Assembly (NCBI RefSeq): GCF_030505615.1
Contig: NZ_CP129992.1
Coordinates: 186,001-250,000 of the forward strand
Source of the DNA: Salinibaculum rarum
GTDB lineage: Archaea; Halobacteriota; Halobacteria; Halobacteriales; Haloarculaceae
Direction: 5' to 3'
Length of the DNA: 64,000 nt
Position 1 is the stretch's first letter, and every line of letters starts with the position of its first letter. A program made the position numbers and the translations under genes. Shown here piece by piece: positions 13,081 through 42,367 of this stretch. The notes under the pieces are model-generated. The model was given only the letters and a program-made list of their open reading frames with translations, searched no databases and was not told where the DNA came from.

Positions 13081-13953
13081 ATGAGTGAGGGAGAACAGAA
13101 GCTCGTCGACACCTCCGGCGACTACCGCTACGTCGTCAAGGACGGCCAGCGACTCGACGACAGCGACTGGCGGTCCTGCCGGGTCGTGCTGACGAGCGAA
13201 CGGATGGTGCTGGCCACCAGCGGCGGCAAACAGGCCATCCCACACGCCCGAATTCTGGTCCCCAACGGCGAGGACGACCTCGTGCCGGACGACGTCGACA
13301 CCACGACGGCGACGCCGTTGCAAATCGGCGACAACATCATCCTCATCGACGCACAGGGCGTCGGTGACTTCGAATCGGAGTACTGCCGGGCCGCGCTCCA
13401 CGACGAGGTGATTCTGGTCAAAGACCAGGCCGTGGTCGGCGGGGTCATCCAGGACGACGCGTCGTGGTCGAAGTGCCGGTTTCGCCTCGACGACGACACG
13501 GTCAGCGTCGGCCTTCCCGGCGGTGAATCGCTCACCTTCGGCATCGAGGACGTCGGCACTATCGACACCGAAGACCAGCAAGTGATGGGCGAGAACCGCA
13601 CCGTCGTCAAGGTCGAACACACCGACGACGAGGACCGCTCGGTCGAGACGCACTTCTCGGGGATGAAGTGGCATTCCCGCGCGCTGGAGTCGCTCCTGGA
13701 GACGGTCATCGAAGACCGGCAGGACGACGACTACGAACTCTCCGATATGGAGAGTCAAGTGCTGATGGCGCTGTACTCCGGCGTTTCACCGTTTGAAATG
13801 TCCGATTTCGTCGGTATCGACGTCGACCAGGTCGAAGAGATTTATCAGAAGCTCCTGGAGGTCGGCGCGGTAGACGAGGTCCGCGTCCGGACCGAAGTGT
13901 CGCTGAACGCCCAGGGGCGGAACATGGCCAGCGAAGCGATGAGCGAGGAGTGA
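13081..13953 (+). CDS. cheF: Taxis protein CheF (first copy)
   Basis: A 290-residue CheF (DUF439) protein. In Halobacterium CheF proteins link the bacterial-type chemotaxis system (CheY, CheC, CheD) to the archaellum switch FlaCE. The N-terminal two thirds consist of two PH-like beta-rich units (DWRSCRVVLTSERMVLA and later WSKCRFRLDDDTV), and the C-terminal 70 residues form a winged helix (VLMALYSGVSPFEMSDFVG, VEEIYQKLLEVGAVDEV). A second copy follows 73 bases downstream. No other che or arl genes are in the window. Confidence 0.9.
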   Translation: MSEGEQKLVDTSGDYRYVVKDGQRLDDSDWRSCRVVLTSERMVLATSGGKQAIPHARILVPNGEDDLVPDDVDTTTATPLQIGDNIILIDAQGVGDFESEYCRAALHDEVILVKDQAVVGGVIQDDASWSKCRFRLDDDTVSVGLPGGESLTFGIEDVGTIDTEDQQVMGENRTVVKVEHTDDEDRSVETHFSGMKWHSRALESLLETVIEDRQDDDYELSDMESQVLMALYSGVSPFEMSDFVGIDVDQVEEIYQKLLEVGAVDEVRVRTEVSLNAQGRNMASEAMSEE

Positions 13954-14026
13954 GTAAGCGGAGACAGGCACCGTACTACCCGCAACGACTAATTGCACGA
14001 GTGGCTAACACTCGACAACGGCGGCT

Positions 14027-14887
14027 ATGAGCAACTCAGAGAAGAAAATCGAGGACACCCAGGGCAAGTACATGCGGGCCGTCAAGAACGGCCACGACAT
14101 CAACGACGCCTCTTGGCAGCAGTGCCGGGTCGTCCTGACCAACCAGCGCATCGCACTCATCGCCGACGGCAAGCTCACGATTCCGCTCGAAGACATCGAC
14201 GAGATGGGCGAGCGCTACGACGTCAACCAGGCGGCCTCAAGCGAGTCGAACTACTCGACGCTGTACGTCGGCGACGACATCTTCCTGCTCGCGACGGCCG
14301 ACCACGAGAACTTCCGGACGAACTTCTACCGGGCAATCCTCGACAACGCCGTCATCTACGTGCAACATCCGGCCGTCAAAGGCGGCGTCGTCCAGAACGC
14401 CGAGTGGCAGCGCGGCCGCCTCAAGGTCACCGAAGAGGCGGTGCGGATGGTCCTCGAAGACGGCCAGAAGTTCGCTATCGACCGCAACGACATCGGCGAA
14501 CTCGAAACCGACGAGAAGGTCGTCGCCGACGAGGAACGTGCGGTCATCGAAGTCGAACACTCGATGGACGGCGCAAGCGTCGAGACACACCTCTCCGGAC
14601 AGGAACACCACATCACCGTGCTCAAGCAACTCTTAGAGGAGGGTGCAGAGCAAAACCGCGCGAATCTGGACCTCGAACCGACCGAACGCCGCGTCATCAT
14701 GGCGCTGTACTCGGGCGTCTCGCCGTTTGGCATCTCCGAGTTCGTCGGCATCGACGTCGAGAAAGTCGAAGAAATCTACGACCGACTCATCGAACTCGAC
14801 GTCGTCGAAGTGGTCCGTGAGCGCAAGGAAGTCTCACTGACCGCCCAGGGACGGAAGGTCGCCGGTGAGGCGATGGGCGAGCGGTGA
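14027..14887 (+). CDS. cheF: Taxis protein CheF (second copy)
   Basis: A 286-residue paralogue of the preceding gene with the same plan: SWQQCRVVLTNQRIALI in the first beta unit, WQRGRLKVTEEAVRMVL in the second, and the nearly identical C-terminal winged helix VIMALYSGVSPFGISEFVG with VEEIYDRLIELDVVEVV. The two copies are collinear and probably arose by duplication; in Halobacterium one CheF is essential for taxis and the other has a minor role. The 73-base gap contains a likely separate promoter. Confidence 0.9.
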   Translation: MSNSEKKIEDTQGKYMRAVKNGHDINDASWQQCRVVLTNQRIALIADGKLTIPLEDIDEMGERYDVNQAASSESNYSTLYVGDDIFLLATADHENFRTNFYRAILDNAVIYVQHPAVKGGVVQNAEWQRGRLKVTEEAVRMVLEDGQKFAIDRNDIGELETDEKVVADEERAVIEVEHSMDGASVETHLSGQEHHITVLKQLLEEGAEQNRANLDLEPTERRVIMALYSGVSPFGISEFVGIDVEKVEEIYDRLIELDVVEVVRERKEVSLTAQGRKVAGEAMGER

Positions 14888-14929
14888 CCAACTCCCAGGT
14901 TTGAGCCAGCTGTTCGAAGGAGAATCGGT

Positions 14930-15091
14930 CTATTCGCTGTCCTCGTCGGCGGCAGGTGTCCCGTCGTGGGCCGAACCCGTCACCGACCGCGAGAGGTTCA
15001 CACCGAGTCCGGCTACGAATGCGAGCAGGGCCACGATGGCCAGCCAGCCGAGTGTTGGATGTTCGATACCGATGTGGAGTGGAGTCAGCAT
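14930..15091 (-). CDS. 53-residue single-span membrane protein
   Basis: A small frame on the minus strand between cheF and the hydrogenase operon. The product starts MLTPLHIGIEHPTLG, has one transmembrane helix (about residues 14-31, WLAIVALLAFVAGLG) and an acidic tail ending ADEDSE, an arrangement common in haloarchaeal small membrane proteins. Its start faces the hydrogenase promoter region, so the two are divergent and could share regulatory DNA. No family recognised. Confidence 0.65.
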   Translation of the reverse strand: MLTPLHIGIEHPTLGWLAIVALLAFVAGLGVNLSRSVTGSAHDGTPAADEDSE

Positions 15092-15160
15092 ACTGGAGGG
15101 GTCTGGCTGCTGATATTTAATTGCTGAGGGTCGTTACCACAGCGTGAGACTCGGGACCGT

Positions 15161-15193
15161 TACTCGCGAGTACTGTCGTCGGCTGAACAGCCG
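15161..15193. promoter_or_regulatory. Two palindromes upstream of the hydrogenase operon
   Basis: A perfect 12-base palindrome TACTCGCGAGTA (15161-15172) is followed by the inverted repeat CGGCTGaaCAGCCG (15180-15193). Both are in the 170-base divergent spacer between the 53-residue membrane protein gene and the hydrogenase operon, 38-70 bases upstream of the TATA-like element. They are good candidates for regulator binding in response to oxygen, hydrogen or another cue, but no regulator gene is adjacent to assign them to. Confidence 0.4.
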
Positions 15194-15230
15194 AGACAGT
15201 CAGCTCCCACGTGTTGAGAACGCGGCGTAC

Positions 15231-15239
15231 TTTTTATTT
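15231..15239 (+). promoter_or_regulatory. TATA-like box of the hydrogenase operon
   Basis: TTTTTATTT lies 24-32 bases before the ATG at 15263. Archaeal transcription starts about 25 bases after the TATA box, so the transcript would begin at or one to two bases before that ATG, giving a leaderless mRNA as is usual in haloarchaea. This decides against the upstream in-frame ATG at 15242, which would be upstream of the predicted transcript start. Confidence 0.5.
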
Positions 15240-15262
15240 GGATGCTAGGAAGATTGCCGAAT

Positions 15263-16474
15263 ATGGCACCGGCGACAGCAGCTGAGACCCCAGCGACTCG
15301 GCGGAACTTTCTGAAGCTCGTCGGCACTGCTGCGGCTGGCTCGGTTATCACGGATTACGGAACAGAGGTCGCAGCGGCGCTTCGACGGGCGACAGATGGG
15401 CCCAAAGAGGTCGTCTGGATTCAGGGACAGACGTGTTCGGCCTGTACGATGTCGACACTCCAGGGGACGGCACCAAGTTTAGAGGAGGCCGTCCACGAGT
15501 TCCAACTGGACGTAACGTACCATCCCGAACTGATGGTCGAGTCGGGGACAGACGCGATAGACGCGATGAGCAAGTCCCCGGACGTACTCATCGTCGAGGG
15601 GGCGATTCCGACGAAAATCCCGTCGGCGGCGACGTTCGGACGCACCGAGGACGGCCGGCCGAAGCCGGTCTACGACTGGGTGATGGAACTGGCACCCGAG
15701 GCAGAGTACGTGATGGCCGTCGGGACCTGTGCCTCATACGGCGGCTGGCAGTCGGCACAGAACGGCGCCCCGGCGGTCATGGACGACCCCGAAGAGGGAC
15801 CGTGGCTCGACGACAACGTGACCGGCGCGAAGGGACTCCAGTACACCCACCAGGACGGCGGCGACGGCGTTCTCGGCCCCGATTTCACCTCGAACGCAGA
15901 GTTGCCGGTCATCAACGTCCCGGGGTGTATGACCCACCCCGACTACGTGCTCCTCACCGTCGCGACGCTGCTCAACGGGCACGAACCCGACCTCGACGAG
16001 TTCAACCGTCCGACGGCGTTCTACGGGCCGCTGGTCCACGACCAGTGCTCGCGGCGGGGCTATTTCGACCGCGGGGAGTTCGTCGACCACGTCGGCGACG
16101 GCTCCGAGAAGTGTCTCTACAACGTCGGCTGTAAGGGACCGTACTGTCACTGTGACGACTCCGTCCGCCTGTGGAACGACGGAACCAGCGTCTGTCGGAA
16201 CGTCGGCGCGCCCTGCATCGGCTGTATGGAACCCGGCTTCTGGGACCAGATGACGCCGTTCTACGAGCCAATCGAGAAACAGGGACTCGGTCTGACCGAT
16301 GTCGAGACGTTCGGGAAGTTCGTCGTCGGCGGGACTGTCGCCGGTATCGGCGCCCACGCCGCCCGGAAGGCGATGGGCTACGGCGACGTCGACGAGGAGG
16401 ACGGCGAAACCGCCGAGGCACGCACCGACGGCTGTGGCTGTGGGAGCGGGTGTGACTGCAAATCCGACGAGTAA
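15263..16474 (+). CDS. [NiFe] hydrogenase small subunit, Tat-exported
   Basis: Electron-transfer subunit of a group 1 uptake hydrogenase. The N-terminus has a twin-arginine signal (TRRNFLKLVGTAAAGSV), so the dimer is exported folded. Iron-sulfur ligands are visible in order: CSAC and GTCASYGG and PGCMTHP for the proximal cluster, HDQCSRRGYF with CLYNVGCKGPYCHCD for the distal cluster, and CIGCMEPGFWD for the medial one. The residue between the first Cys pair is Ala, so the extra Cys used by oxygen-tolerant [4Fe-3S] enzymes is absent there. A hydrophobic stretch FVVGGTVAGIGAHA may anchor the C-terminus. An odd Cys-rich tail (CGCGSGCDC) ends the protein. The ATG at 15263 is chosen from promoter spacing. 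Confidence 0.93.
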   Translation: MAPATAAETPATRRNFLKLVGTAAAGSVITDYGTEVAAALRRATDGPKEVVWIQGQTCSACTMSTLQGTAPSLEEAVHEFQLDVTYHPELMVESGTDAIDAMSKSPDVLIVEGAIPTKIPSAATFGRTEDGRPKPVYDWVMELAPEAEYVMAVGTCASYGGWQSAQNGAPAVMDDPEEGPWLDDNVTGAKGLQYTHQDGGDGVLGPDFTSNAELPVINVPGCMTHPDYVLLTVATLLNGHEPDLDEFNRPTAFYGPLVHDQCSRRGYFDRGEFVDHVGDGSEKCLYNVGCKGPYCHCDDSVRLWNDGTSVCRNVGAPCIGCMEPGFWDQMTPFYEPIEKQGLGLTDVETFGKFVVGGTVAGIGAHAARKAMGYGDVDEEDGETAEARTDGCGCGSGCDCKSDE

Positions 16475-16476
16475 CT

Positions 16477-18042
16477 ATGCCAGAAATAGAAATCGACCCG
16501 ACAACACGCATCGAGGGCCACCACAGCACGACGCTGCACGTCGACGACGGCGTCGTCACGGAGGCCAAGAGCCACATGGACATGTTCCGCGGGATGGAAC
16601 TGGTCGTCCTCGACCGCCCACCATCAGACGCCCCTGTCTTCACACAGCGGGTCTGTGGCGTCTGTTTCACCGTCCACCGTTACACCTCCCTGCGAGCCAT
16701 CGAGAACGCGGCGGCGAAGGCAGGAGTCTTCGACGACATCCCGCCGACGGCAAAGCGCATGCGAAACCTGATGGAGGCGATGTTCACGCTGTGGAACCAC
16801 GCTGTCCACATGTTCGCGCTGGCCGGCCCGGACTACTCGACGGCCGTCATGGGCGAGGACGGCGTTGCCCGCCTGGACCCGATGGAAGGCGAGGGGTATC
16901 TGACTGCACTGGAGATGCAGCGGGAACTCCTCCAGGGCTTTGCCGAGTTCGGCGGGAAGGCACCGCACCCGCTCACGTACTCGCCCGGCGGGATGGCCGC
17001 CACGCCGACGATGGAGAAGATTCAGAGCATCCGCGACCAACTGGAGACGGTCAGCGAGTGGCTCGGTCCGACCGAGGCGGTTCCTGACGTCGTCGAAGAC
17101 GTCCGCAACGGCACTGTCGAAGCGAATTACGCGCAGGGTCTACACGACATCGTGGCGATGCTCGTCGCCGCAAAGCAGACGGGTGCCGACGACTTCGGCG
17201 TCGGCCCGGGGCGGTACTACTCCAACGGGAAGTACTACGACATGGACGGCGGGAAAGTGATGGACCCCGGCGTCTATCTCGACGGGACCCGACAGGTCAA
17301 GAGCAAAGACGAGATTACGTCGGCCATCACCGAGGACGTCGCTCGCGCGTGGTACACCGACGACTCGGGCGGGCCGCCGATGGACGAGACCCCGCCCAAA
17401 CCAGACCCCGAGAAGGCGGGTGCCTACTCCTGGGGGAAAGCACCCCGGTACAACGGCCAGAACATGGAGTGTGGGCCGCTGGCACGGCTGGTGCTGGCCG
17501 ACAGCGACCCGTTCGACCTCCGGGCGACGCTTGGCGGCGACACCACCAAATCGAGTACGCTCAACCGAATCATCGCCCGCGCACAGGAGTCGCTGTGGCT
17601 CCGCGACAAGGCCATGGAGTGGCTCGACGAAATCGAACCGCAGGGGACAGTCGGCCAGGAGTGGACCGACGACTTCACCGCCGAGGGTGTCGGCCTCTCG
17701 GAGGCATCGCGGGGCGCAATCTCTCACTGGGTCCGTGTCGAGGACGGCACGGTCACGAACTACCAGATTATCACACCCACGCTGTGGAACCTCGGCCCGC
17801 GTGACGCCGAGGGGACACCGAGTATCTTCGAAGGTGCCGTCGAAGGAATGAAAGTCGACGACGTCGAGAACCCCATCCACGTGTTGCGGACGGTCCGCTC
17901 GTTCGACCCGTGTCTCGCCTGCTCGGTCCACGTCGAGAGCCCCGACACAACGTACACCGAGGAAGTCACACCCGCCTCGCCCGCCGGCGCGATGGGCGGC
18001 GGCGACACCCCCTACGCCGGCCAGCGACCTGACGAGACATGA
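16477..18042 (+). CDS. [NiFe] hydrogenase large subunit
   Basis: Catalytic subunit that splits H2 at the Ni-Fe(CN)2CO centre. Both nickel-binding motifs are intact: RVCGVCFTVHRYTSLRA (about residues 57-73) and DPCLACSVH near the C-terminus. A 36-residue extension follows the final His, the expected substrate of the maturation protease encoded two genes downstream; it starts VESPDT. The length of 521 residues is slightly shorter than classic group 1 subunits. It begins two bases after the small-subunit stop and overlaps the cytochrome b gene by four bases. The lack of NAD- or F420-linked partner genes and the presence of cytochrome b point to quinone-linked H2 oxidation. Confidence 0.95.
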   Translation: MPEIEIDPTTRIEGHHSTTLHVDDGVVTEAKSHMDMFRGMELVVLDRPPSDAPVFTQRVCGVCFTVHRYTSLRAIENAAAKAGVFDDIPPTAKRMRNLMEAMFTLWNHAVHMFALAGPDYSTAVMGEDGVARLDPMEGEGYLTALEMQRELLQGFAEFGGKAPHPLTYSPGGMAATPTMEKIQSIRDQLETVSEWLGPTEAVPDVVEDVRNGTVEANYAQGLHDIVAMLVAAKQTGADDFGVGPGRYYSNGKYYDMDGGKVMDPGVYLDGTRQVKSKDEITSAITEDVARAWYTDDSGGPPMDETPPKPDPEKAGAYSWGKAPRYNGQNMECGPLARLVLADSDPFDLRATLGGDTTKSSTLNRIIARAQESLWLRDKAMEWLDEIEPQGTVGQEWTDDFTAEGVGLSEASRGAISHWVRVEDGTVTNYQIITPTLWNLGPRDAEGTPSIFEGAVEGMKVDDVENPIHVLRTVRSFDPCLACSVHVESPDTTYTEEVTPASPAGAMGGGDTPYAGQRPDET

Positions 18043-18902
18043 CGACATCAGAGTCACCGCCCGGGTCGGGAAGCGGTGCCGATTCCGACCGGGAAACGTC
18101 CGGTTCGCTCCGCCATCGACTGGTCGGACTCCTCCGGGAGCTACTCCGACGGCCGGACGAGGCCGACGAGCGGTACGGCCGCATCCACGCGCTGCGGGGA
18201 CGGGTCACCGTCCAGCGCCACAGCCTCGGCGCCCGCATCTCCCACTGGTTTCAGGCGCTCTGTATGTTGGTCCTGATGTGGACCGGGTTCGCCATCTGGA
18301 CGGGGAGTTACTGGCCGCTCAACATCGCGCCGTGGGACGGCTACTACATCGCCTTCGGCCTGCATATCTGGGCCGGCATTCTGTTGATGGCGCTGCTGTT
18401 CGTCCTCTTTCCGATGTACCACATCTACGTCGACGGCCATCGGCAACTGGCAGAACTGGCGGACATCCGCGAGGCCGTTCACATCGGCCAGGCCTTTGCC
18501 GGGCTGAAATCGTACATCCCGGGCTATCACGACGCCCGCCAGACCTACGACGAGGAGGAAGGCGACTGGGTCGCGTACCACCCGATGCAGAAGACGTTCT
18601 TCTGGTGGATTTCCATCTTCTTTGGCGTGCTCGTCCTGACCGGGTTCGGGATGTACGCCGAGATGCGGACCGACCCGATATGGTGGGTCGACCTGCTTGG
18701 CTTCCTCGATGGATACGTCGGCTTCATCCTCCTGAAGCAGATTCACCTGCTTACCTTCTTCATCGTCGTCGCGATGGTCATCGGCCACGTCTACTTCGCG
18801 ATCTTGCCGAGCAACCGCGAGACGCTCAAGTCGATGGTCTTCGGCGACATGGAGGCGTACGTCCTCGGCGACGAGGAGGGGGACGATGACGGCGAACGCT
18901 GA
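18039..18902 (+). CDS. Hydrogenase cytochrome b subunit
   Basis: A 287-residue membrane diheme cytochrome b of the HyaC/formate-dehydrogenase gamma type that passes electrons from the hydrogenase to the quinone pool. After a charged 60-residue N-terminus there are four to five helices with candidate heme His in RISHWFQALCMLVLMWTGF, FGLHIWAG, the MYHIYVDGH segment and KQIHLLTFFIVVAMVIGHVY. The long hydrophilic N-terminus is unusual compared with bacterial HyaC. It starts within the large-subunit stop (ATGA overlap) and overlaps the protease gene by 17 bases, so all three are one translational unit. Confidence 0.9.
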   Translation: MTTSESPPGSGSGADSDRETSGSLRHRLVGLLRELLRRPDEADERYGRIHALRGRVTVQRHSLGARISHWFQALCMLVLMWTGFAIWTGSYWPLNIAPWDGYYIAFGLHIWAGILLMALLFVLFPMYHIYVDGHRQLAELADIREAVHIGQAFAGLKSYIPGYHDARQTYDEEEGDWVAYHPMQKTFFWWISIFFGVLVLTGFGMYAEMRTDPIWWVDLLGFLDGYVGFILLKQIHLLTFFIVVAMVIGHVYFAILPSNRETLKSMVFGDMEAYVLGDEEGDDDGER

Positions 18903-19377
18903 GGAGGCCACCGACGCCGCCACAAGCACGACACAGGCCGTCGTCGGCGTCGGCAGCATGGTCATGTCCGACGACGGCGTCGGCTACCACGCCATCGAGG
19001 CGTTGCGCGAGCGGTCGACGCCCGCAGCGACGCTCACCCACGCCGGTACGACGGCGTTTCTCGCGCTGGAAGCGATGAGCGGGGCCGACCGCGCCATCGT
19101 CGTCGACGCGCTGGCACTCGACGCCGACCCGGGGACCGTCCGGGAGTTCAGACTCGACAAGCCATCCGAGGAGTCGCCGGAGGTCACGATGCACGATTTC
19201 AGTTTCAGCGACGCGCTCGCCGTCGGGTCCTCGGCCTACGACCTGCCCGAGGAGGTGCTGCTCGCTGGTATCGTTCCCGAGACCATGACGCCGGGCGTCG
19301 GCCTCTCTGAGGCCGTCGAGGACGCGCTCCCGGAACTGGTCTCGCGCATCGAACGCCGACTCGCGACAGACACATGA
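18886..19377 (+). CDS. Hydrogenase maturation protease (HyaD/HycI family)
   Basis: Removes the C-terminal extension of the large subunit after nickel insertion. The 163-residue protein shows the family N-terminal motif as GVGSMVMSDDGVGYHAI, where the usual Asn of GxGN is Ser but the nickel-sensing Asp-Asp is kept, then IVVDALALD and the His in TMHDFSFSDAL. A short acidic N-terminal extension precedes the fold. The start overlaps the cytochrome b gene and the stop overlaps the zinc-finger gene that follows. Confidence 0.9.
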   Translation: MTANAEEATDAATSTTQAVVGVGSMVMSDDGVGYHAIEALRERSTPAATLTHAGTTAFLALEAMSGADRAIVVDALALDADPGTVREFRLDKPSEESPEVTMHDFSFSDALAVGSSAYDLPEEVLLAGIVPETMTPGVGLSEAVEDALPELVSRIERRLATDT

Positions 19378-19550
19378 ACGGAACCTGGTACTGCACAGAC
19401 TGCGAACAGCGCATCGAGAAAGAAGACATCGACGACCACGAGGCCGATGGCCACCACGTCAAGGGCCGCTTCCAACCCGACCGGCTCCTCCCGGGCGACC
19501 CGGAGATGGTCGGTGCCGGCATGGACACCGCCGACGGGGGTGACCGCTGA
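19374..19550 (+). CDS. 58-residue zinc-finger protein embedded in the hydrogenase operon
   Basis: A small frame coupled on both sides: its ATG overlaps the protease stop by four bases and its stop overlaps the hypC start by one base. The product begins MNGTWYCTDCEQRIEKEDID and continues with a His-rich stretch (DDHEADGHHVKG), giving a CxxC plus His-x4-His/His arrangement typical of a single zinc site of the C2H2 or rubredoxin-like kind. The C-terminus is low-complexity and acidic. I recognise no Hyp family with this shape, though small zinc proteins occur near hydrogenases. A role in metal delivery, assembly or regulation is plausible from the tight coupling only. Confidence 0.75.
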   Translation: MNGTWYCTDCEQRIEKEDIDDHEADGHHVKGRFQPDRLLPGDPEMVGAGMDTADGGDR

Positions 19551-19888
19551 TGTGTCTCGGTGTCCCCGGCGAGATAACCGAAATCGACGGCCGTGAAGCC
19601 GTCGCGGACTTCTGGGGTGTCGAGCGTCGGGTCCGCCTCGACGTGGTCGGCGACGCCGTCGATGTCGGCGACTACATCCTCAACCACGCCGGCTTTGCCA
19701 TCCGGAAGATACCAGAACGGGAAGTCGAGGAGACGATGGCAGTCTACGAGTCGCTGTTCGGCGACAACCCCGAGGAAGCCCTCGAGGAGATGGGCGCCGA
19801 CGACGACGCCGACATCGACATCGGACCGGGAGGGCGTCGACGGCCGGCCACCCCGGACACCAACCGGGGTGAGGGCGATGGCGACTGA
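19550..19888 (+). CDS. hypC: Hydrogenase maturation chaperone HypC
   Basis: HypC carries the Fe(CN)2CO group with HypD and delivers it to the large subunit. The protein starts MCLGVPGEI with the essential Cys2, followed by a beta-barrel ending near residue 75. A 35-residue acidic and then Gly-Arg-Pro-rich C-terminal extension is not found in ordinary HypC (about 75-85 residues); the extension overlaps the hypD start by 11 bases and may simply serve coupling. Confidence 0.92.
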   Translation: MCLGVPGEITEIDGREAVADFWGVERRVRLDVVGDAVDVGDYILNHAGFAIRKIPEREVEETMAVYESLFGDNPEEALEEMGADDDADIDIGPGGRRRPATPDTNRGEGDGD

Positions 19889-20987
19889 CGCCGACGACCT
19901 GAAGTTCCGCGACCCCGAGACCGCACAGGAAATCGCCGCCGACATAGAGGAGCAGATGGCCCGCATCGGCCAGCCAGTCGAGATTATGCACGTCTGTGGC
20001 AGCCACGAGCAGGTCATCGCGAAGTTCGGTCTGCGGTCGATGCTTCCCTCGGAGCTTACGATTACGATGGGGCCGGGCTGTCCGGTCTGTGTGACCAACA
20101 TGCCGGAAGTCGACGAAGCCGTCGCGCTCGCCGAGGCCGGTAAGACGGTCGCCACCTACGGCGACATGTTCGAAGTACCGGGCACCACAAAGAGCCTCGC
20201 CGACGCTGCCGCCGAGGGCGCGGACGTGGAAGTCGTCTACAGCGCCAGCGACGCCGTCGAACTGGCCGAGGACAATCCCGACGAAGATGTGATCTTTTTC
20301 GCGACCGGCTTCGAGACGACCGCTGCACCGACGGCCGCCGTGTTGCAGGCCGACCCGCCGGAGAACTTCTACGTGCTCTCGGCACACAAGTACGTCCCGC
20401 CGGCGATGGAGGTCGTCGCGGAGATGCCGGCCACCAGCGTCGACGGCTTCCTCGCGGCCGGGCACGCGGCGACGATTACCGGCTACGGGCTCTTCGAGGA
20501 CTTTGTCAGCGAGTACGACCTGCCCGTCGTCGTCGGCGGGTTCGAACCCATCGACGTACTCTTCGGCATCCGAAAACTGCTCTCCTTTATCGAGAACGAC
20601 GAGGACGGCCTCGCCAACGCCTACCCGCGCTGTGTCTCCCGCGAGGGCAACGAGGCAGCCATGGATGCCATCGACGACGTGTTCGAACTCACGGCTGGCG
20701 AATGGCGCGGTATCGCGGACATCCCCGACGCGAACTTCGAACTCAGCGAGGAGTACGCCGACCACGCGGCCCGCCAGCAGTTCGACATCGGCGTCGTCGA
20801 CGGCGACGCCGACCCGCTGACCGAGGAGTGTATCTGCGGGGACATCATGGCCGGAACGGCCTCACCCGACGGCTGTGACCTCTTTGGCGAGGAGTGTACG
20901 CCAACAAACCCCGTCGGAGCCTGTATGGTCTCGGACGAAGGAACCTGCAAAATCTGGCACGAGTACGGAGGGCGACCGGACCTATGA
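19878..20987 (+). CDS. hypD: Hydrogenase maturation scaffold HypD
   Basis: HypD is the iron-sulfur scaffold on which the Fe(CN)2CO group is built. Motifs seen: MHVCGSHEQVIAKFGLR with the catalytic Cys, GPGCPVCVT, FFATGFETTAAPTA, VGGFEPIDVLFGI, and the C-terminal cluster ligands ECICGDIMAG, LFGEECTPTNPVGACMVS and GTCKIWHEY. Starting at ATG 19878 the protein has 369 residues, the usual length. It overlaps hypC by 11 and hypE by four bases. Confidence 0.95.
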   Translation: MATDADDLKFRDPETAQEIAADIEEQMARIGQPVEIMHVCGSHEQVIAKFGLRSMLPSELTITMGPGCPVCVTNMPEVDEAVALAEAGKTVATYGDMFEVPGTTKSLADAAAEGADVEVVYSASDAVELAEDNPDEDVIFFATGFETTAAPTAAVLQADPPENFYVLSAHKYVPPAMEVVAEMPATSVDGFLAAGHAATITGYGLFEDFVSEYDLPVVVGGFEPIDVLFGIRKLLSFIENDEDGLANAYPRCVSREGNEAAMDAIDDVFELTAGEWRGIADIPDANFELSEEYADHAARQQFDIGVVDGDADPLTEECICGDIMAGTASPDGCDLFGEECTPTNPVGACMVSDEGTCKIWHEYGGRPDL

Positions 20988-22012
20988 GCGAAGACGATGT
21001 CGTGACCGTCGCACACGGGTCCGGAGCCGGGCGAACCCGGGATTTCCTCGAAGAGCGTGTCGTCCCGCGCTTTGGCGGGGGAAGCGAGGACCTTCCGGTC
21101 GGGCTAGCTGCGCTGGACGACGGCGCTGTCCACGACCTCGGCGACCAATCGCTGGTCGTCACGACCGACAGCCACGTCGTCTCACCGCTCTCCTTTCCGG
21201 GCGGGGACATCGGCCGACTGGCCGTCGCGGGGACCGTCAACGACCTCGCGGTGATGGGCGCGACCGACCCGCTCGCGCTGACCTGTTCGCTCATCGTCGA
21301 GGCGGGCACGTCGACCGACCTGCTCGACTCGATTCTCGACTCGATGGAACGCACCTGCGAGGAAGCAGGCGTCGCAATCACGACCGGCGACACGAAGGTC
21401 ATGGGCAGCGGCGAAGTCGACGGCGTCGTCATCAACACGACCGGCGTCGGCGTCGTCCCGCCCGGCGAACACGTCTCCGACGGCGGGCTCTCGCCGGGCG
21501 ACAAAATCGTCCTCTCGGGGCCGGTCGGCGACCACGGTATCACGCTCCTGGCCGAGCGCGAGGGGTTCGACATCGACGGCGACCTCGAGAGCGACGTTGC
21601 ACCGGTCGCAGACCTCGTTGCAGCCGCGATGGACGCCGGGACCGTGACAGCGATGAAAGACCCCACACGCGGCGGGTTCGCCACCGCAATCAACGAGATG
21701 GTACGGAAAGCCGACGTGGGTGTCACGCTCGAGGAACCCACTATCCCGGTCCGCGAGGCCGTCGCATCGACCGGCGAGTTGCTCGGTATCGACCCGTTCG
21801 ACGTCGCCAACGAGGGCAAAGTCGTCTTCGGCGTCGCCGCCGACGATGCCGACGCCGTCGTCGACGCACTCAACGAGCACCCGATGGGCAGTGAGGCAGC
21901 CGTCGTCGGTGAGGTAACGGACGAAAACCGGGGCCGGGTGGTACTCGATACCGGCTTCGGCGAACGGTTCCTGAGCGAACCCGGCGGCGAACAACTGCCC
22001 CGAATCTGCTGA
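20984..22012 (+). CDS. hypE: Hydrogenase maturation protein HypE
   Basis: HypE converts the carbamoyl group received from HypF into cyanide, bound as thiocyanate on its own C-terminal Cys. The PurM-like ATP-binding fold is seen in VTVAHGSGAGRTRDF, TTDSHVVSPLSFPGGDIG, VAGTVNDLAVMGA, and DPTRGGFATAINEM. The last four residues are PRIC, ending in the required Cys. Starting at ATG 20984, which overlaps the hypD stop, the protein has 342 residues, typical of the family. Confidence 0.95.
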   Translation: MSEDDVVTVAHGSGAGRTRDFLEERVVPRFGGGSEDLPVGLAALDDGAVHDLGDQSLVVTTDSHVVSPLSFPGGDIGRLAVAGTVNDLAVMGATDPLALTCSLIVEAGTSTDLLDSILDSMERTCEEAGVAITTGDTKVMGSGEVDGVVINTTGVGVVPPGEHVSDGGLSPGDKIVLSGPVGDHGITLLAEREGFDIDGDLESDVAPVADLVAAAMDAGTVTAMKDPTRGGFATAINEMVRKADVGVTLEEPTIPVREAVASTGELLGIDPFDVANEGKVVFGVAADDADAVVDALNEHPMGSEAAVVGEVTDENRGRVVLDTGFGERFLSEPGGEQLPRIC

Positions 22013-22014
22013 CG

Positions 22015-22398
22015 ATGCACGAACTCAGCGTTGCCGAAGCGATTCTCGACCATGCCCGTGAGGCCGCCGCCGACCACGGCGCAAACACTGTCGACACGGT
22101 GACGATAGCGCTCGGCGCGGCGACCCACGTCAACCCCGACCAGCTCCGATTTTGCATCGAGACGGTCGCCGAGGAGACGTCGCTTGCGGGCGTCGAGGTG
22201 GCAATCGAGCGCGTCGAACCGCGGGCGACCTGTGACTGTGGCTGGGCGGGCGAGCCGCCGGCGTTCGAGGGGACGGCAGCCGTCGTCCCGGCCGCGCGCT
22301 GTCCGGAGTGTGGCTCGCAGACGGACTTTACACAAGGGAAAGAATGCCGGCTGGCCAGCATCGACATCCCAGACGACGCAGCGAGGACACACCAATGA
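22015..22398 (+). CDS. hypA: Nickel-insertion protein HypA
   Basis: HypA delivers nickel to the hydrogenase large subunit with HypB. The protein starts MHELSVAEAILDHA; Met1-His2-Glu3 make the nickel site. The zinc ribbon follows with CDCGW and CPECGSQ (about residues 72-104). Length 127 residues, slightly longer than most HypA. It starts two bases after hypE and overlaps hypB by four bases. Confidence 0.94.
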   Translation: MHELSVAEAILDHAREAAADHGANTVDTVTIALGAATHVNPDQLRFCIETVAEETSLAGVEVAIERVEPRATCDCGWAGEPPAFEGTAAVVPAARCPECGSQTDFTQGKECRLASIDIPDDAARTHQ

Positions 22399-23255
22399 CA
22401 CAGCACGTATCGACACCACTGCCGCATCGTTCGCCAATCGAGTCCCTGCTGTCGGGACTCTTTGACCGGGCAGCGCCGGTCGCCCGGACACACCGGTTCG
22501 GTCACGGCAACGACGGCCACGACGGCGAGGCCAGCGAGGACGACATACTCGCACAGTTTCGCCAGCAAGCGCGGGACCTCCACGAGCGCGTCGTCCACGA
22601 CCACGGCGTCTTCGTCGTCGAATTTCTTGGCGCGACCGGCGGCGGGAAGACGACGCTCGTCGAACGCCTCGTCGAGCGGGCACCCGACGACGAGCACATC
22701 GGCGTCATCGTCGGTGACGTGGCCGGGGACGACGACGCACGCCGGTTCCGCGAGCACGGCGTCAGCGTCGCGAACGTCACGACGGGCAAGGAGTGTCACC
22801 TCGACGCGAACATGGTCGAAGACGCCCTCAACGAATTCGACCTCGACGCGCTGGACCGTCTCTACGTCGAGAACGTCGGCAACATGGTCTGTCCGGCGGA
22901 TTTCCCGCTCGGGGCACAGGCCCGAATCCTCGTCGTGAGTACGACCGAGGGCGACGACGTCGTGCGCAAACACCCGCTGCTGTTCGAGGCCTGTGACGCC
23001 GCCGTCGTCAACAAGACCGACATTGCCGAAGCCGTCGGCGCGGACGTGGCGACAATGTGCGAGGACATCGCCGAGGTTGCTCCCGACATGGACGTCTTCG
23101 AGACGAACGCCCGCGCCGACGAGGGCGTCGACGCACTCGCTGACTTCCTCGCCGACGTGCGCGAGAGCGGCCACCAGCACGCTCACGACCACGACGAAAC
23201 ACAGGTACACGACCACGACGAGACCCACGCGCACGACCACGCCCACCACGACTGA
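22395..23255 (+). CDS. hypB: Nickel-insertion GTPase HypB with terminal His-rich tail
   Basis: A SIMIBI GTPase powering nickel insertion. The P-loop appears as FLGATGGGKTTLVERL, with later blocks VIVGDVAG, TTGKECHLDA (the Cys-His metal site at the dimer interface), YVENVGNMVCPADF and VVNKTDI. Many HypB proteins carry a His-rich nickel store at the N-terminus; here the His cluster is at the C-terminus (HQHAHDHDET and HDHDETHAHDHAHHD), about 25 residues long. It was probably added to buffer nickel. 286 residues. Confidence 0.94.
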   Translation: MTQHVSTPLPHRSPIESLLSGLFDRAAPVARTHRFGHGNDGHDGEASEDDILAQFRQQARDLHERVVHDHGVFVVEFLGATGGGKTTLVERLVERAPDDEHIGVIVGDVAGDDDARRFREHGVSVANVTTGKECHLDANMVEDALNEFDLDALDRLYVENVGNMVCPADFPLGAQARILVVSTTEGDDVVRKHPLLFEACDAAVVNKTDIAEAVGADVATMCEDIAEVAPDMDVFETNARADEGVDALADFLADVRESGHQHAHDHDETQVHDHDETHAHDHAHHD

Positions 23256-23257
23256 CG

Positions 23258-25528
23258 ATGCCCGACCGTACTCGTGCGGAGGTGCGGGTCACCGGCGTCG
23301 TCCAGGGCGTGGGCTTCCGGCCGTTCGTCTACCGGCGCGCCGTCGACGCTTCCCTCGACGGATACGTCCGCAACACCGGTGACGGAGTCGACGCCGTCTT
23401 CGAAGGCCCACAGCCAACTATCGAGACAGTCCTCGATGCCATCGAGTCCGACAACCCACCGCTGGCATGGGTCGACACGCTCGACCGGACCTGGACTGAA
23501 CCCACCGGACTCGACGGGTTCGAGATACGCGAATCAAGCAGTAGCGGAGCGACGGGCGTCCCGGTCCCGCCGGATACTGGCATCTGTGAGCAGTGTCTCG
23601 ACGACATCCGCGACCCAGCGAGTCACTACCACGACTACTGGGCGACCGCCTGCGTCGACTGCGGGCCCCGGTTTACCGTGGTGCGTGACGTACCCTACGA
23701 CCGTCCACGTACCGCGATGGACGAATATCCGCTCTGCGAGGAGTGTCGAGCGCGCTACGAGACGCCGACTGACCGGCGCTATCACGCACAGACGGTCGCC
23801 TGTGCCGAGTGTGGCCCGACGCTCCGGTTCGAGATGGACGGGGAGACACGTTCCGAGGGTCGGACCGCCATCCGGCAGGCGAGTGACCAGCTCGCCGATG
23901 GTGACATCCTCGCCATTCGAGGCATCGGCGGGACACACATCGTCTGTGACGCGACGAGACCGGCCGTCGTCGAGCGCCTGCGTGAGCGAATTGGACGCCC
24001 GAACAAACCGTTCGCGGTGATGGCACCATCGCTGGACAGCGTCGAGTCCTTTGCTGACCTCGGGGACGGTGACCGGGACGCACTGACGGACGTTCGCCGC
24101 CCTATCGTGCTGGCCGACCGAGGCGACACGGACTGGCTCAATGCTGTCGCGCCCGGCGTGCACACCGTCGGCGTCATGCTCCCCTACGCCGGGCTCCACC
24201 ACCTCCTGTTCGACGGCGTCGACGGGTCGCTCGTGATGACCAGCGCCAACAGGCCCGGCGAGCCGATGGTGACAACAGTCGGCGGTATCCGGGAGCGACT
24301 CGACAGCGTGGTCGACGGCGCGCTCGTTCACGACCGCGACATCGTCGCCCGCTGTGACGACAGCGTCGTCCGCGTCGTAGACGGCGACCGCCGCTTTGTC
24401 CGCCGCTCGCGAGGCTGGACGCCGGCCTCACTCCCGAATCCTGCGGCAGACAACGGGAACCAGCCAGTGCTCGCGCTCGGTCCGGAACGGGACGTGACGG
24501 CGGCCATCGCCGACGGCGACGGGGTCGTACTCTCACAGCACATCGGCGACGTGGACGACCCATCGACCCTAAAATTCCATCGCCAGGCTATCTCACACCT
24601 GACGGACCTGACTGGAATCGGCCCGGCCGTCGTCGCCTGCGACCAGCATCCCGATTTCTCGACGAGCGCCGAAGCGGAACGGTACGCCGAGGAGGGACTC
24701 GACGGTCCCGTCACAGTCCAGCACCACCACGCCCACGCCGCCGGACTGTGTGCGGAACACGGCGTCGAGCGGGCGATAGTCGTCGCAGCCGACGGGACTG
24801 GCTACGGTCCCGACGGGACCGTCTGGGGTGGTGAGGTCCTCGATGCGACGCTCGCAGACTTCGAGCGAGTCGGCGGCCTCGACACCTTTGGTCTCCCGGG
24901 CGGGGAAACGGCAGTCTGGTATCCGGCGCGGACACTGGCGACGCTCCTCGATGATGCAGATGTCGTCGACGAGCGACTGGTAGCCACCGGCGCAGTCGAC
25001 TCCAAATCCGACGCCGAACTCGTCCGGGAGCAGGCACGCGCCGGCGTGAACACGCCAGCGACGACGAGCGCGGGGCGATTCCTCGATGCCGTTGCTGCAC
25101 TGGTCGGCGCGTGTGACCGGCGCGACTACGAGGGCGAACCCGCACAGCGGCTGGAGACGCTCGCGGCGAGTGGCACGCCCCGTGAGCTGTCGGTGCCGAT
25201 GACCGACCGGGAGGGCACGACCGTAGTCGCCGTCGACGAATTGCTGCAGTCACTGGCGGAACTCGACGCGCCGCCGGCGGACGTAGCGGCTACGGCCCAG
25301 GACGCGCTCGCACGCGGGCTCGGGCAGTTGAGTGTGGATGCAGCCCGCGAGCGTGGTGTCGACATCGTTGGATTCACTGGCGGCGTCGCGTACAACGAGG
25401 CTATCTCGGAGCAGTTGCGCCACGTCGTCGAAGAGCGTGGGCTGGACTATCTCGTACCCGAGCGAATACCGCCGGGCGACGGTGGTATCGCGTACGGGCA
25501 GGCCGTCGTCGCGACTGCACGGCAATAG
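23258..25528 (+). CDS. hypF: Carbamoyltransferase HypF
   Basis: Makes the carbamoyl group that HypE turns into cyanide. The 756-residue protein shows the full domain order: acylphosphatase (TGVVQGVGFRPFVYRRA), two zinc fingers (CEQCLDD, CVDCGPRFT, CEECRARY, CAECGPT), a YrdC-like adenylation domain (IRGIGGTHIVCDA, RPNKPFAVMA, VMTSANRPGEPM) and a Kae1-like carbamoyltransferase domain (VQHHHAHAAGLCAEHG, DGTGYGPDGTVWGGE, GFTGGVAYNE). It is the last gene of the hydrogenase operon, two bases behind hypB. Confidence 0.95.
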   Translation: MPDRTRAEVRVTGVVQGVGFRPFVYRRAVDASLDGYVRNTGDGVDAVFEGPQPTIETVLDAIESDNPPLAWVDTLDRTWTEPTGLDGFEIRESSSSGATGVPVPPDTGICEQCLDDIRDPASHYHDYWATACVDCGPRFTVVRDVPYDRPRTAMDEYPLCEECRARYETPTDRRYHAQTVACAECGPTLRFEMDGETRSEGRTAIRQASDQLADGDILAIRGIGGTHIVCDATRPAVVERLRERIGRPNKPFAVMAPSLDSVESFADLGDGDRDALTDVRRPIVLADRGDTDWLNAVAPGVHTVGVMLPYAGLHHLLFDGVDGSLVMTSANRPGEPMVTTVGGIRERLDSVVDGALVHDRDIVARCDDSVVRVVDGDRRFVRRSRGWTPASLPNPAADNGNQPVLALGPERDVTAAIADGDGVVLSQHIGDVDDPSTLKFHRQAISHLTDLTGIGPAVVACDQHPDFSTSAEAERYAEEGLDGPVTVQHHHAHAAGLCAEHGVERAIVVAADGTGYGPDGTVWGGEVLDATLADFERVGGLDTFGLPGGETAVWYPARTLATLLDDADVVDERLVATGAVDSKSDAELVREQARAGVNTPATTSAGRFLDAVAALVGACDRRDYEGEPAQRLETLAASGTPRELSVPMTDREGTTVVAVDELLQSLAELDAPPADVAATAQDALARGLGQLSVDAARERGVDIVGFTGGVAYNEAISEQLRHVVEERGLDYLVPERIPPGDGGIAYGQAVVATARQ

Positions 25529-25593
25529 TAACTTTTCCGGGTGGTCGCCGGCCGGGCACTCATCTGGAGTCAACTTACCACTCTCGGATCGGT

Positions 25594-25613
25594 TAAAAGA
25601 TATTATTCTTTTA
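25594..25613. promoter_or_regulatory. Inverted repeat upstream of the winged-helix/TumE-like pair
   Basis: TAAAAGA and TCTTTTA form seven-base arms around TATTAT, ending 37 bases before the ATG at 25651. The centre is itself TATA-like, so a dimer bound here would cover the promoter. Because the next gene encodes a winged-helix protein, autoregulation is the simplest reading. Confidence 0.45.
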
Positions 25614-25650
25614 GAAAGGAATTATATGAGTTAAAGCCGTATCGGTGATT

Positions 25651-26181
25651 ATGCCCGGGACTGATACATCAGACAGTCCGCCCCCGTTCGACGACCCGTT
25701 CAGCAGCGGTGATGTCGAACAGCAACTCTACGCGACTGTGCTCCAGACGCGAAGTCCACGAACCGCGGGTGCCATCGCGGAAGACGTTGAGTGTGACCCG
25801 AAGACTGCACGGAAGTACCTGCGATGGTTCGCCGAGTTGGGCATTGTCACGGAACACGACGGCCACCCGACAACGTACGAGCGCAACGATGCGTACTTCG
25901 AGTGGCGGCGAATCAATCAGTTGGCCACAGAATACACCGCCGACGAGCTGATTCAGCAGGTGAACGACCTCACAACCACAATCGAGCAATACCAGCAGCG
26001 ATACGACGCAGAGACGCCGAGTGACGTAGATGCACTTGCCACCGCGAATAGCTCGGACGACCGGACGATAGACGACGTGTACAGTGACCTCGGAGACTGG
26101 GAAACGGTGCGTCGGGAGCGTCAACTCCACGAGCAGGCGCGCCAGCAACGAACCGGAGCGAGTGGGCGGGCGTCCGGCTAG
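25651..26181 (+). CDS. Winged-helix regulator (DUF7342-like), likely antitoxin
   Basis: A 176-residue protein. Residues about 25-85 form a winged helix (AGAIAEDVECDPKTARKYLR as helix-turn-helix, then VTEHDGHPTTYER as wing), followed by YFEWRRINQLATEYTADEL and a coiled-coil segment of about 25 residues, then an acidic C-terminus. Haloarchaeal proteins with this plan are often found directly upstream of small toxin-like genes. The next gene starts three bases downstream. The ATG at 25651 is preferred to a GTG two codons upstream. Confidence 0.75.
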   Translation: MPGTDTSDSPPPFDDPFSSGDVEQQLYATVLQTRSPRTAGAIAEDVECDPKTARKYLRWFAELGIVTEHDGHPTTYERNDAYFEWRRINQLATEYTADELIQQVNDLTTTIEQYQQRYDAETPSDVDALATANSSDDRTIDDVYSDLGDWETVRRERQLHEQARQQRTGASGRASG

Positions 26182-26184
26182 CCG

Positions 26185-26610
26185 ATGGTCCCTGCCGACG
26201 ACGGCGGCAGTCCCGCCCCAATCGACCGACCAGTGCTGGAACTGCTTCGGGAGCGACTGCTGGGGACGACACAGGTTTCGGCGGCGAGAATTACCGACGA
26301 GGACGGCCATCTGGAGTTACGGACTGTCCTGTCGGATGCGTACTACCCGACGGCCGTTGAGCGAGCAGTGCTGTCCGTTCGGTGGTACACGAACGACGAT
26401 TTCAAAATCCACTACCGGGAGGTTCGCGGCGACGACTGGCAGTGCCGATGGGATAGCCACCCCAACCCCCACAACTCGCGCGACCACTTTCATCCGCCAC
26501 CGAACGCCGAAACGCCCGGTGAGGATGCGTCGTGGCCCGACGACTACCGGGAAGTGCTGGCACTCGTACTCGAAGAAATCGAGGGGCGAATCGACGACAT
26601 CTGGCACTGA
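26185..26610 (+). CDS. TumE-like putative toxin
   Basis: A 141-residue protein whose C-terminal half resembles the TumE (DUF6516) toxin family: a beta-rich part with DFKIHYREVRGDDWQCRWD, then HPNPHNSRDHFHPPP, comparable to the RxDNxPHH...PHHxH pattern, and a final helix (YREVLALVLEEIEG). It follows the winged-helix gene at a three-base distance, so the pair looks like a toxin-antitoxin operon. The match is from memory of the pattern and is moderate; the protein could have another function. Confidence 0.55.
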   Translation: MVPADDGGSPAPIDRPVLELLRERLLGTTQVSAARITDEDGHLELRTVLSDAYYPTAVERAVLSVRWYTNDDFKIHYREVRGDDWQCRWDSHPNPHNSRDHFHPPPNAETPGEDASWPDDYREVLALVLEEIEGRIDDIWH

Positions 26611-26672
26611 CCGCCGGCCGCGAACGTTGCAGTTCCCAGAACGTTGAAATTCCCCGGCCGCCACCACCCGAT

Positions 26673-34936: not shown

Positions 34937-35009
34937 TGCGGGATAGGGTAGCGGTCCAGCCCGCGGGGCTCATAACCCCGAAGCCCAGGTTCGACCCCTG
35001 GTCCCGCAA
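34937..35009 (+). tRNA. tRNA with CAT anticodon (Met-like)
   Basis: A complete 73-base cloverleaf: acceptor TGCGGGA/TCCCGCA, D stem GGGT/GCCC with an AG-GG loop, anticodon stem CGGGG/CCCCG with loop CTCATAA, a four-base variable loop, T stem CCAGG/CCTGG with loop TTCGACC, discriminator A. There is no intron. The three G-C pairs at the base of the anticodon stem are an initiator mark, yet the first pair is U1-A72 instead of the archaeal initiator A1-U72, so assignment to initiator, elongator or lysidine/agmatidine-type Ile cannot be settled. CCA is not encoded. Confidence 0.85.
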
Positions 35010-35082
35010 TGGCGGGCAGTCCAGTGGAGTGGACGCGCCGCTGACGACGGCGAGAGCGCACGTTCGAATCGTGTTCCGCCAA
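35010..35082 (+). tRNA. tRNA-like gene with GAC anticodon (Val-like)
   Basis: It starts on the very next base after the CAT tRNA. All stems form: acceptor TGGCGGG/TCCGCCA (last pair G-U), D stem GTCC/GGAC, anticodon stem CGCCG/CGGCG with loop CTGACGA, five-base variable loop, T stem GCACG/CGTGT with loop TTCGAAT, discriminator A. Position 8 is C where almost all tRNAs have U, which would break the U8-A14 contact unless edited. Either an active but odd tRNA-Val or a decaying copy. The next gene begins 14 bases later. Confidence 0.65.
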
Positions 35083-41263: not shown

Positions 41264-42367
41264 GACTAACTTATTGAGATAGTTGTCAAGATGATTCTCG
41301 ATCCACGAGGAGGCGAAGCTAAGTTGGTTGGTCAAATTTCCGAACAGTTCTGTGATTCGTCTTCGATACTCATCTCCACCTTCGACAATGAATGGCGAAG
41401 ATTCCCACTTGAGACTCTTCCAAACTGGCTCGATCGGATTGAGATCGGGCGATCCCACTGGAAGAAATATCAAATCTATCCCGAGTTCGTGTGCTCGCTT
41501 GCGCGTGTACTTACACACGTGTGACGAGAAATTATCCAACACGAGCAGAATCCGCTTGCCAGGATTCTGCTCGCGGACCTTCTCGAAACACCCGCAAATC
41601 TTCTCTTTCTCCTGATTCGGTGGAAACGACAGGACACTCTCACCGTTGAGGGCGTAGAATCCAGCTGCTGGTGTGTCGATCTTCACCAACTTCCGCTCAA
41701 TGTGTGGCTCATCAACCGTATACATCCGCTGAGAATTGTCCCACGGTTGTGGGTGAGAGATATCGAAGAATCCGACAACAGCGCCTCCGTCTGTTCGGAT
41801 ATCCTCGTCGCGGTCCCAGTCTTCGTCGTCAGTATCATCTTCGCGTTTGTTGTGAGGTTGCTCAAGAGCCTCCTCGTCGAACGCGTACCTGACGCGTTCG
41901 TCGAGGATTTCTTCGGCGTTCTCTGGTCGCTTAGGGCGTTTTGTTCGAGGAATGGCGTAGTGGAGGCCGAGTTTATCCAGAAACGTTGGGAGGTAATGTG
42001 GGTGATATTCGACATCGAACTCCTCGTTGAGAAGATGCTGAATCTCTTGTTTCTTCCAGGGCTGTCCCTCACGGAGGCGTGCAATGAGTTGTTCTTGTTC
42101 TGCTTCGTCGAGCTTCGGGGGCCTGCCGCCCCCGAAGTTCGGCGTCAGTTTTCCGAGTCCACCTTCGTTCCACCGTGTCACCCAGTTACTTGCCGTTCCT
42201 TGTGAGATCCCTATATCTTCGGCAGCAGTTGCCAGCGTTGCACCATTGTAGAGCCGTTTGAGAAAGGTGAGGCGTTTGTATTCCTTTATGTCGTCTGCCT
42301 CAGCCTGTAATCGGTCAAGTTCTCCCTCACTCAGATGTTTGACGACATTTCTCTCACGGCCAACCAT
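41261..42367 (-). CDS. IS630-family transposase
   Basis: 368 residues, intact. N-terminal helix-turn-helix (GATLATAAEDIGISQGTASN, then a second one with PWKKQEIQHLLNEEF) and a DDE domain: VVGFFDISHP, LLVLDNFSSHVCKY (second Asp) and the NPIE motif SPDLNPIEPVWKSLK (Glu). The stop codon lies at the junction with the other insertion sequence. The element probably spans about 41264-42418 between TA dinucleotides, but terminal repeats are weak by eye. Confidence 0.85.
   Translation of the reverse strand: MVGRERNVVKHLSEGELDRLQAEADDIKEYKRLTFLKRLYNGATLATAAEDIGISQGTASNWVTRWNEGGLGKLTPNFGGGRPPKLDEAEQEQLIARLREGQPWKKQEIQHLLNEEFDVEYHPHYLPTFLDKLGLHYAIPRTKRPKRPENAEEILDERVRYAFDEEALEQPHNKREDDTDDEDWDRDEDIRTDGGAVVGFFDISHPQPWDNSQRMYTVDEPHIERKLVKIDTPAAGFYALNGESVLSFPPNQEKEKICGCFEKVREQNPGKRILLVLDNFSSHVCKYTRKRAHELGIDLIFLPVGSPDLNPIEPVWKSLKWESSPFIVEGGDEYRRRITELFGNLTNQLSFASSWIENHLDNYLNKLV

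Follow-up and report, generated by a model that had tools for sequence, protein, structure and literature searches.

Operon structure and gene content

The window, the 64,000-nucleotide stretch of the Salinibaculum rarum genome that was analysed, contains a hyd-hyp operon at 15263-25528 on the forward strand. The operon is one compact, uninterrupted block of eleven intact orfs, encoding in order the small subunit (SSU) and large subunit (LSU) of a [NiFe] hydrogenase, a b-type cytochrome, a maturation protease, a protein of 58 residues, HypC, HypD, HypE, HypA, HypB and HypF. These genes and the associated features are as follows.

15231-15237, + strand: putative TATA-like promoter element TTTTTAT with leaderless-type spacing, from the sequence and the similar spacing in Salinibaculum litoreum (L033)
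15263 (or 15242)-16474, + strand: hydrogenase SSU (PF14720, 1.3e-29; PF01058, 5.8e-24; TIGR00391, 195.1 bits against a cut-off of 179.5; alignment)
16477-18042, + strand: [NiFe] LSU (PF00374, 4.3e-91; alignment)
18039-18902, + strand: b-type cytochrome membrane subunit (PF01292, 1.4e-18, above cut-off; TIGR02125 is the best NCBIfam match, below cut-off)
18886-19377, + strand: hydrogenase maturation endopeptidase (PF01750, 6.7e-18; TIGR00072, 116.5 bits, above cut-off)
19374-19550, + strand: 58-residue C2H2 zinc-finger-like protein of an unnamed family (no Pfam or NCBIfam family; conserved in relatives; predicted beta-beta-alpha fold)
19550-19888, + strand: HypC (PF01455, 3.1e-23; TIGR00074 above cut-off)
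19878-20987, + strand: HypD (PF01924, 1.3e-128; TIGR00075 above cut-off)
20984-22012, + strand: HypE (TIGR02124, 1.4e-110)
22015-22398, + strand: HypA (PF01155, 4.2e-25)
22395-23255, + strand: HypB (TIGR00073, 9.5e-71, above cut-off)
23258-25528, + strand: HypF (TIGR00143, 6.1e-232)
25645-26610, + strand: DUF7342 (winged-helix-like) and TumE-toxin-like pair (PF24033, 1.4e-25; PF20126, 1.3e-4, just below cut-off)
14888-26618, no strand: block missing at the corresponding S. litoreum site, where about 234 bp separate CheF2 from glmU

The Pfam E-values of the operon proteins (1e-17 to 1e-128), the match of HypF to its NCBIfam model (6e-232) and the recurrence of the identical gene order in relatives exclude a chance origin of the operon. 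The original prediction placed the structural genes, cytochrome b, protease and six Hyp factors in one operon, and the Pfam and NCBIfam matches bear out every named gene, intact and in that order; the eleventh, the 58-residue orf at 19374-19550, had been left unnamed. The predicted pattern of overlaps, here of 1-17 bp, or gaps of 2 bp extends to the interval from the protease gene to hypC because the 58-residue orf fills the space between them. The predicted SSU start at 15263 is a better choice than the longer reading from the ATG at 15242, since the TATA-like element lies about 30 nucleotides upstream of 15263, a spacing similar to that in S. litoreum.

Directly upstream of the operon are two adjacent paralogues of the archaeal chemotaxis gene cheF (13081-14887, PF04283). 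Downstream, the DUF7342 and TumE-like genes are likely to be a toxin-antitoxin pair. They belong to the inserted block that is absent from the empty site of S. litoreum; their homologues are on replicon C2 of S. litoreum, and distant ones are found near the hydrogenase of L050 (450-1193). Farther along the window, two transposase genes (IS5/IS1182-like and IS630, 39619-42367) lie between a tRNA-Met/tRNA-Val pair (34937-35082) and a sugar-nucleotide/glycosyltransferase-like region (about 42-64 kb) of lower G+C content, down to 0.445 at 53-55 kb.

A zinc-finger-like gene of haloarchaeal cassettes

The orf of 58 codons between the protease gene and hypC overlaps both neighbours (ATGA and TGATG). 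Its product has the motifs CxxC and HExxxH and a conserved RPDRLLxxDP tail, and an alignment of relatives shows invariant residues at C7, C10, H22 and H27, among others, and in parts of the tail of RPDRLL type. The predicted model has the beta-beta-alpha arrangement of C2H2 fingers, with block-mean pLDDT of 80-90 for residues 1-30 and low confidence in the tail. The protein matched no Pfam or NCBIfam family, no convincing match was found among families, solved structures or folds, and a fold search with the model returned nothing better than weak hits to zinc fingers of eukaryotes (best E 0.83).

With a profile built from 19 homologues, 26 of the 28 Halobacteria genomes that carry the hydrogenase were strongly matched (E below 1e-15), against none of the 364 that do not carry it. 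The two carriers in which the gene is missing (G319 and G089) have no hyp genes beside the hydrogenase either. The gene was found in every complete haloarchaeal hyd-hyp cassette examined, and was not detected in Archaeoglobi or other outside carriers. Its position and its co-absence with the hyp genes suggest that the protein is a factor that aids maturation of the hydrogenase or controls its expression. In haloarchaeal cassettes the gene is no less constant than the hyp genes but has been assigned to no named family, and so represents an annotation gap.

Weak matches to the profile in other haloarchaea (1e-4 to 1e-8) were rejected as homologues; those inspected are different small zinc fingers that have no RPDRLL tail and are not beside hyp genes. 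Four loci (L111, L112, L114 and L131) encode a separate small haloarchaeal zinc-finger family (WYCKDCSEYIDERMASWHESQGH) in a context unrelated to hydrogenase.

Features of the hydrogenase

The SSU has a Tat signal (RRNFLK), three Fe-S clusters, a C-terminal hydrophobic helix and a cysteine-rich tail (CGCGSGCDC); the combination of Tat signal and C-terminal Fe-S domain (PF14720, with TIGR00391 above cut-off) is a trait of group 1. The LSU likewise has the group 1 ligand motifs (RxCGxC..H as RVCGVCFTVH, DPCxxCxxH as DPCLACSVH) and a cleavable C-terminal extension of about 36 residues, and the protease gene is adjacent. The encoding of a cytochrome b together with SSU and LSU is also characteristic of group 1 (PF01292 is above cut-off; the TIGR02125 equivalog cut-off is not reached). 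The prediction of a Tat-exported, cytochrome-b-linked uptake hydrogenase of group 1 type with a complete maturation set is thus well supported, and the earlier deduction of quinone-linked H2 uptake from the cytochrome b and the Tat signal agrees with the motifs and families, from which the enzyme would be expected to consume H2. A [NiFeSe] enzyme was considered and rejected: the Ni ligands have cysteine codons, and the flags of one TGA inside the LSU of several relatives are stops at the true C-terminus.

At the medial cluster, the SSU has cysteine at the position that is proline in [3Fe-4S] medial clusters, as in low-potential [4Fe-4S] enzymes. The first medial-cluster cysteine is shifted by two residues (PYxHCDD) in all main-clade haloarchaeal SSUs checked and in the MAG L053; the alignment places no such shift in the SSUs of Archaeoglobi or E. 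coli Hyd-2. At the proximal cluster, an extra cysteine pair (Cys19/Cys120) is the signature of O2-tolerant group 1d, and the aligned SSU has CSAC and GTCASYGG at those places, without the pair. A CAC sequence near the proximal cluster was rejected as a marker of O2 tolerance: it occurs in most of sub-clade A (described below) and also in some Archaeoglobi, and is absent from the window and from S. litoreum.

Phylogeny, distribution and comparison with known systems

The LSU tree unites all haloarchaeal LSUs of group 1 type, apart from the distant L031, in a single clade (100/100); the Archaeoglobi fall outside it. The window LSU joins the haloarchaeal and Archaeoglobi sequences strongly, with E. 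coli Hyd-1/2 and HoxG further out, in a tree that has one group 2 outgroup and some long branches; scores against solved structures of group 1 and of group 2a overlap. The tree agrees with the published grouping and with the HydDB results that assigned clade-mates to sub-group 1a (PMC6176080). L031 belongs to a haloarchaeal genome without COX1 (G129), and its LSU (38% identity) groups with L072 outside the main clade.

The haloarchaeal clade splits into three sub-clades. Sub-clade A includes the window and Salinibaculum, Halovenus, Haloplanus, Halohasta, Halonotius, Halorussus, Halobiforma and Natronomonas LN261; sub-clade B includes Halodesulfurarchaeum, Natrarchaeobaculum, several Natrialbaceae MAGs and others; the sub-clade C loci examined (L042, L043, L051, L052, L055, L168 and L169) have no cytochrome b gene adjoining that of the LSU. 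In several sub-clade C SSUs the C-terminus is a long hydrophobic tail of another kind.

The hydrogenase family is present in 28 of 392 sampled Halobacteria genomes (7%), a count that leaves out G129; Haloferax volcanii, in the control set, gave no match to PF00374. The statement that H2 oxidation is known in only a few haloarchaea was therefore an understatement, and the cassette had already been described: papers from 2017 and 2018 (PMC5437934, PMC6176080) reported haloarchaea that grow with H2 and the HydABC-HydD-HypA-F suite, including growth of Halodesulfurarchaeum and Natrarchaeobaculum on H2 and sulfur with homologous cassettes, classed as O2-sensitive group 1a, and specifically growth of Natrarchaeobaculum sulfurireducens AArc1 on H2 with sulfur (PMC6176080). 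Haloarchaea were already known to have this type of enzyme, and the window adds another member: hydABC, hydD and hypCDEABF are adjacent, with the 58-residue orf before hypC, as in the defined haloarchaeal hyd-hyp cassette.

The closest counterpart is the operon of S. litoreum HD8-45 (CP046866, 146-156 kb), which has the eleven genes in the same order, an LSU 90% identical and about 80% DNA identity to the window from end to end, but is located at a different chromosomal site with no shared flanks. N. sulfurireducens AArc1 (plasmid pAArc1-02) and Halodesulfurarchaeum formicicum HTSR1 have the same subunits as the window and belong to the same clade. The gene order on pAArc1-02 is also the same, including the 58-residue gene as a "hypothetical protein" (WP_117362505.1), and the AArc1 LSU is 57% identical. 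In contrast to those of AArc1 and HTSR1, which are in another sub-clade, the window cassette belongs to sub-clade A and is chromosomal rather than on a plasmid, and its SSU has the cysteine-rich tail and an extra cysteine in the PYCHC loop. The nearest well-sampled LSU relatives outside the haloarchaea are the group 1 hydrogenases of Archaeoglobi (40-43%), which differ in having the first medial-cluster cysteine at the usual position and no detected 58-residue gene. The membrane-bound hydrogenase operon of Cupriavidus necator (hoxKGZ and following genes, pHG1) resembles the window in its quinone linkage and its layout of SSU, LSU, cytochrome b, protease, accessory and hyp genes, but belongs to O2-tolerant group 1d and has accessory hox genes, among them that for the rubredoxin HoxR, which are all missing from the window.

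Relocation of the cassette

In a comparison of 164 kb around the window with the 160 kb that surround the S. litoreum operon, alignment at length was confined to 15294-25518 of the window (80%). The S. litoreum counterpart of the window site, at 2.076-2.082 Mb, consists of bacA, CheF1 and CheF2 followed by glmU and glmS, with a gap of about 234 bp between CheF2 and glmU and no hydrogenase. Reciprocally, the flanks of the S. litoreum operon are about 255 bp apart in this genome (1.556-1.561 Mb), with no hydrogenase between them. The operon is in a contig of 2.93 Mb with flanks homologous to S. litoreum, in a genome with contamination given as 6.28%. The S. litoreum empty site (L163, about 2,078.8 kb) contains a small zinc-ribbon-like reverse-strand orf and the window contains another, different one at about 14.9-15.1 kb, which marks the intergenic spot as variable.

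Divergence from S. litoreum at 4-fold sites is similar in the operon (0.44) and in the flanks (0.47), and for this reason one ancestral operon, common to both and relocated in at least one of the lineages, is more likely than two gains independent of each other; transfer among close relatives may be an alternative route. Across genera, flanks are essentially not shared except at two Halovenus loci. The gene tree conflicts with taxonomy: the sub-clade A sequences from Haloarculaceae do not form a group of their own (AU p = 0.003), and Halovenus is found in all three sub-clades. No IS ends and no long direct repeats, or none beyond chance, were found at the cassette borders; no relative was found among viral contigs, and a plasmid search gave no match above 60% identity. 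The suggestion that the self-contained layout would allow transfer as a unit gains from the reciprocal empty sites, the unshared flanks and the tree conflict, which support movement of the cassette as one unit. The reciprocal empty sites are a clear example of how a respiratory module of several genes can relocate whole.

Electron acceptors and function

No protein of the Mo/W-pterin oxidoreductase family PF00384 was found in this genome, although control genomes including that of Haloferax volcanii were positive, and therefore the genome has no CISM-type reductase for sulfur, thiosulfate, DMSO or nitrate and no such formate dehydrogenase. The original prediction, sound in reading the operon as an uptake hydrogenase, had overlooked the missing sulfur, DMSO and nitrate reductases, the kinds of Mo-dependent enzyme that serve the haloarchaeal H2 oxidisers studied earlier. 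Three COX1-family genes are present, two for heme-copper oxidases and one of the size of qNor, as is NirK (397.6 bits, above cut-off). The genome thus appears to be equipped for respiration of O2, and perhaps nitrite, only.

PF00384 and COX1 were surveyed in 29 genomes, and NirK in this one. Two of the six other sampled sub-clade A genomes (Halovenus aranensis G302 and Halonotius aquaticus G066) also have no PF00384, the remaining four have it, and it is absent from two sub-clade C genomes (G300 and G124). Of the 28 family genomes, 26 have COX1-family genes; the Halodesulfurarchaeum-type G001 and G007 do not and, unlike the window genome, have 9-10 PF00384 genes. As far as gene content indicates, in some carriers at least the sub-clade B acceptors cannot receive electrons from H2. 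Because this genome has heme-copper oxidases, NirK and qNor but no PF00384, its H2 electrons would most likely go to O2 or nitrite, not to sulfur or DMSO. O2 is the simplest candidate and nitrite/NO its main rival; the SSU has no O2-tolerance cysteine pair of the 1d type, which tempers the case for O2.

On balance, the locus is probably a complete and self-contained respiratory module for H2 uptake, facing outward, passing electrons mainly to O2 with nitrite/NO as an alternative, and relocated as one cassette. The SSU and LSU would fold in the cytoplasm, where HypA-F would build and insert the Ni-Fe(CN)2CO centre, with the 58-residue zinc-finger protein most likely aiding this maturation or controlling its expression, and the protease would remove the LSU C-terminus. 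The heterodimer is predicted to leave the cytoplasm via Tat, with the SSU tail and cytochrome b as its anchors. H2 would then be oxidised outside the membrane, with electrons passing through the three Fe-S clusters and haem b to menaquinone, and from there mainly to O2 via the heme-copper oxidases or alternatively to nitrite/NO via NirK and qNor. The whole block would have been inherited and relocated as a single cassette.

Aerobic use is countered by the SSU itself, in which the missing Cys19/Cys120 pair and the medial-cluster cysteine typical of low-potential [4Fe-4S] enzymes count against this account, and by the homologous AArc enzymes, which were classed as O2-sensitive group 1a and did not use H2 aerobically (PMC6176080). 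A proton-reducing or purely nitrite-linked role may be considered. The same missing pair, the reported O2 sensitivity of sub-clade B relatives (PMC6176080) and the presence of NirK and a qNor-like gene would fit an O2-sensitive enzyme of micro-oxic or anoxic brine only, coupled to nitrite/NO and silent or inactive when cells are fully aerated. Such an enzyme is a less likely but credible reading; H. aranensis and H. aquaticus of sub-clade A have heme-copper oxidases and no PF00384, which by these two markers indicates an aerobic setting for several members.

[NiFe] hydrogenases are reversible, so the enzyme could in principle evolve H2 as a valve for excess reductant from the quinone pool or from fermentation; however, group 1 hydrogenases with Tat export and cytochrome b are outward-facing enzymes of H2 uptake. 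Relatives also grow on H2 (PMC5437934, PMC6176080), and a valve is very improbable. Equally improbable is a decaying or non-functional passenger, a reading favoured by the case of H. formicicum HSR6, which carries the genes yet does not use H2 (PMC5437934): all eleven orfs are intact with their ligands conserved, and amino-acid identity to S. litoreum is 73-90% at a 4-fold-site divergence of about 0.44, from which purifying selection on the operon follows.

If the preferred account of an aerobic uptake module is extended to the relatives, sub-clade A might tentatively be regarded as an aerobic branch, more doubtful than the account of this operon: a lineage classed as O2-sensitive 1a that uses O2, with a zinc-finger maturation factor, a displaced medial cysteine and a single relocating cassette. 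In ordinary aerobic haloarchaea, its members might possibly oxidise H2 down to trace levels. Until now, haloarchaeal H2 use has been linked with anaerobes, strict or facultative, whose respiration runs on sulfur or DMSO. The present cassette is complete, is maintained by selection and belongs to a genome with equipment for O2 and nitrite/NO respiration alone; with it, aerobic H2 oxidation by archaea common in salt lakes becomes a testable proposition.
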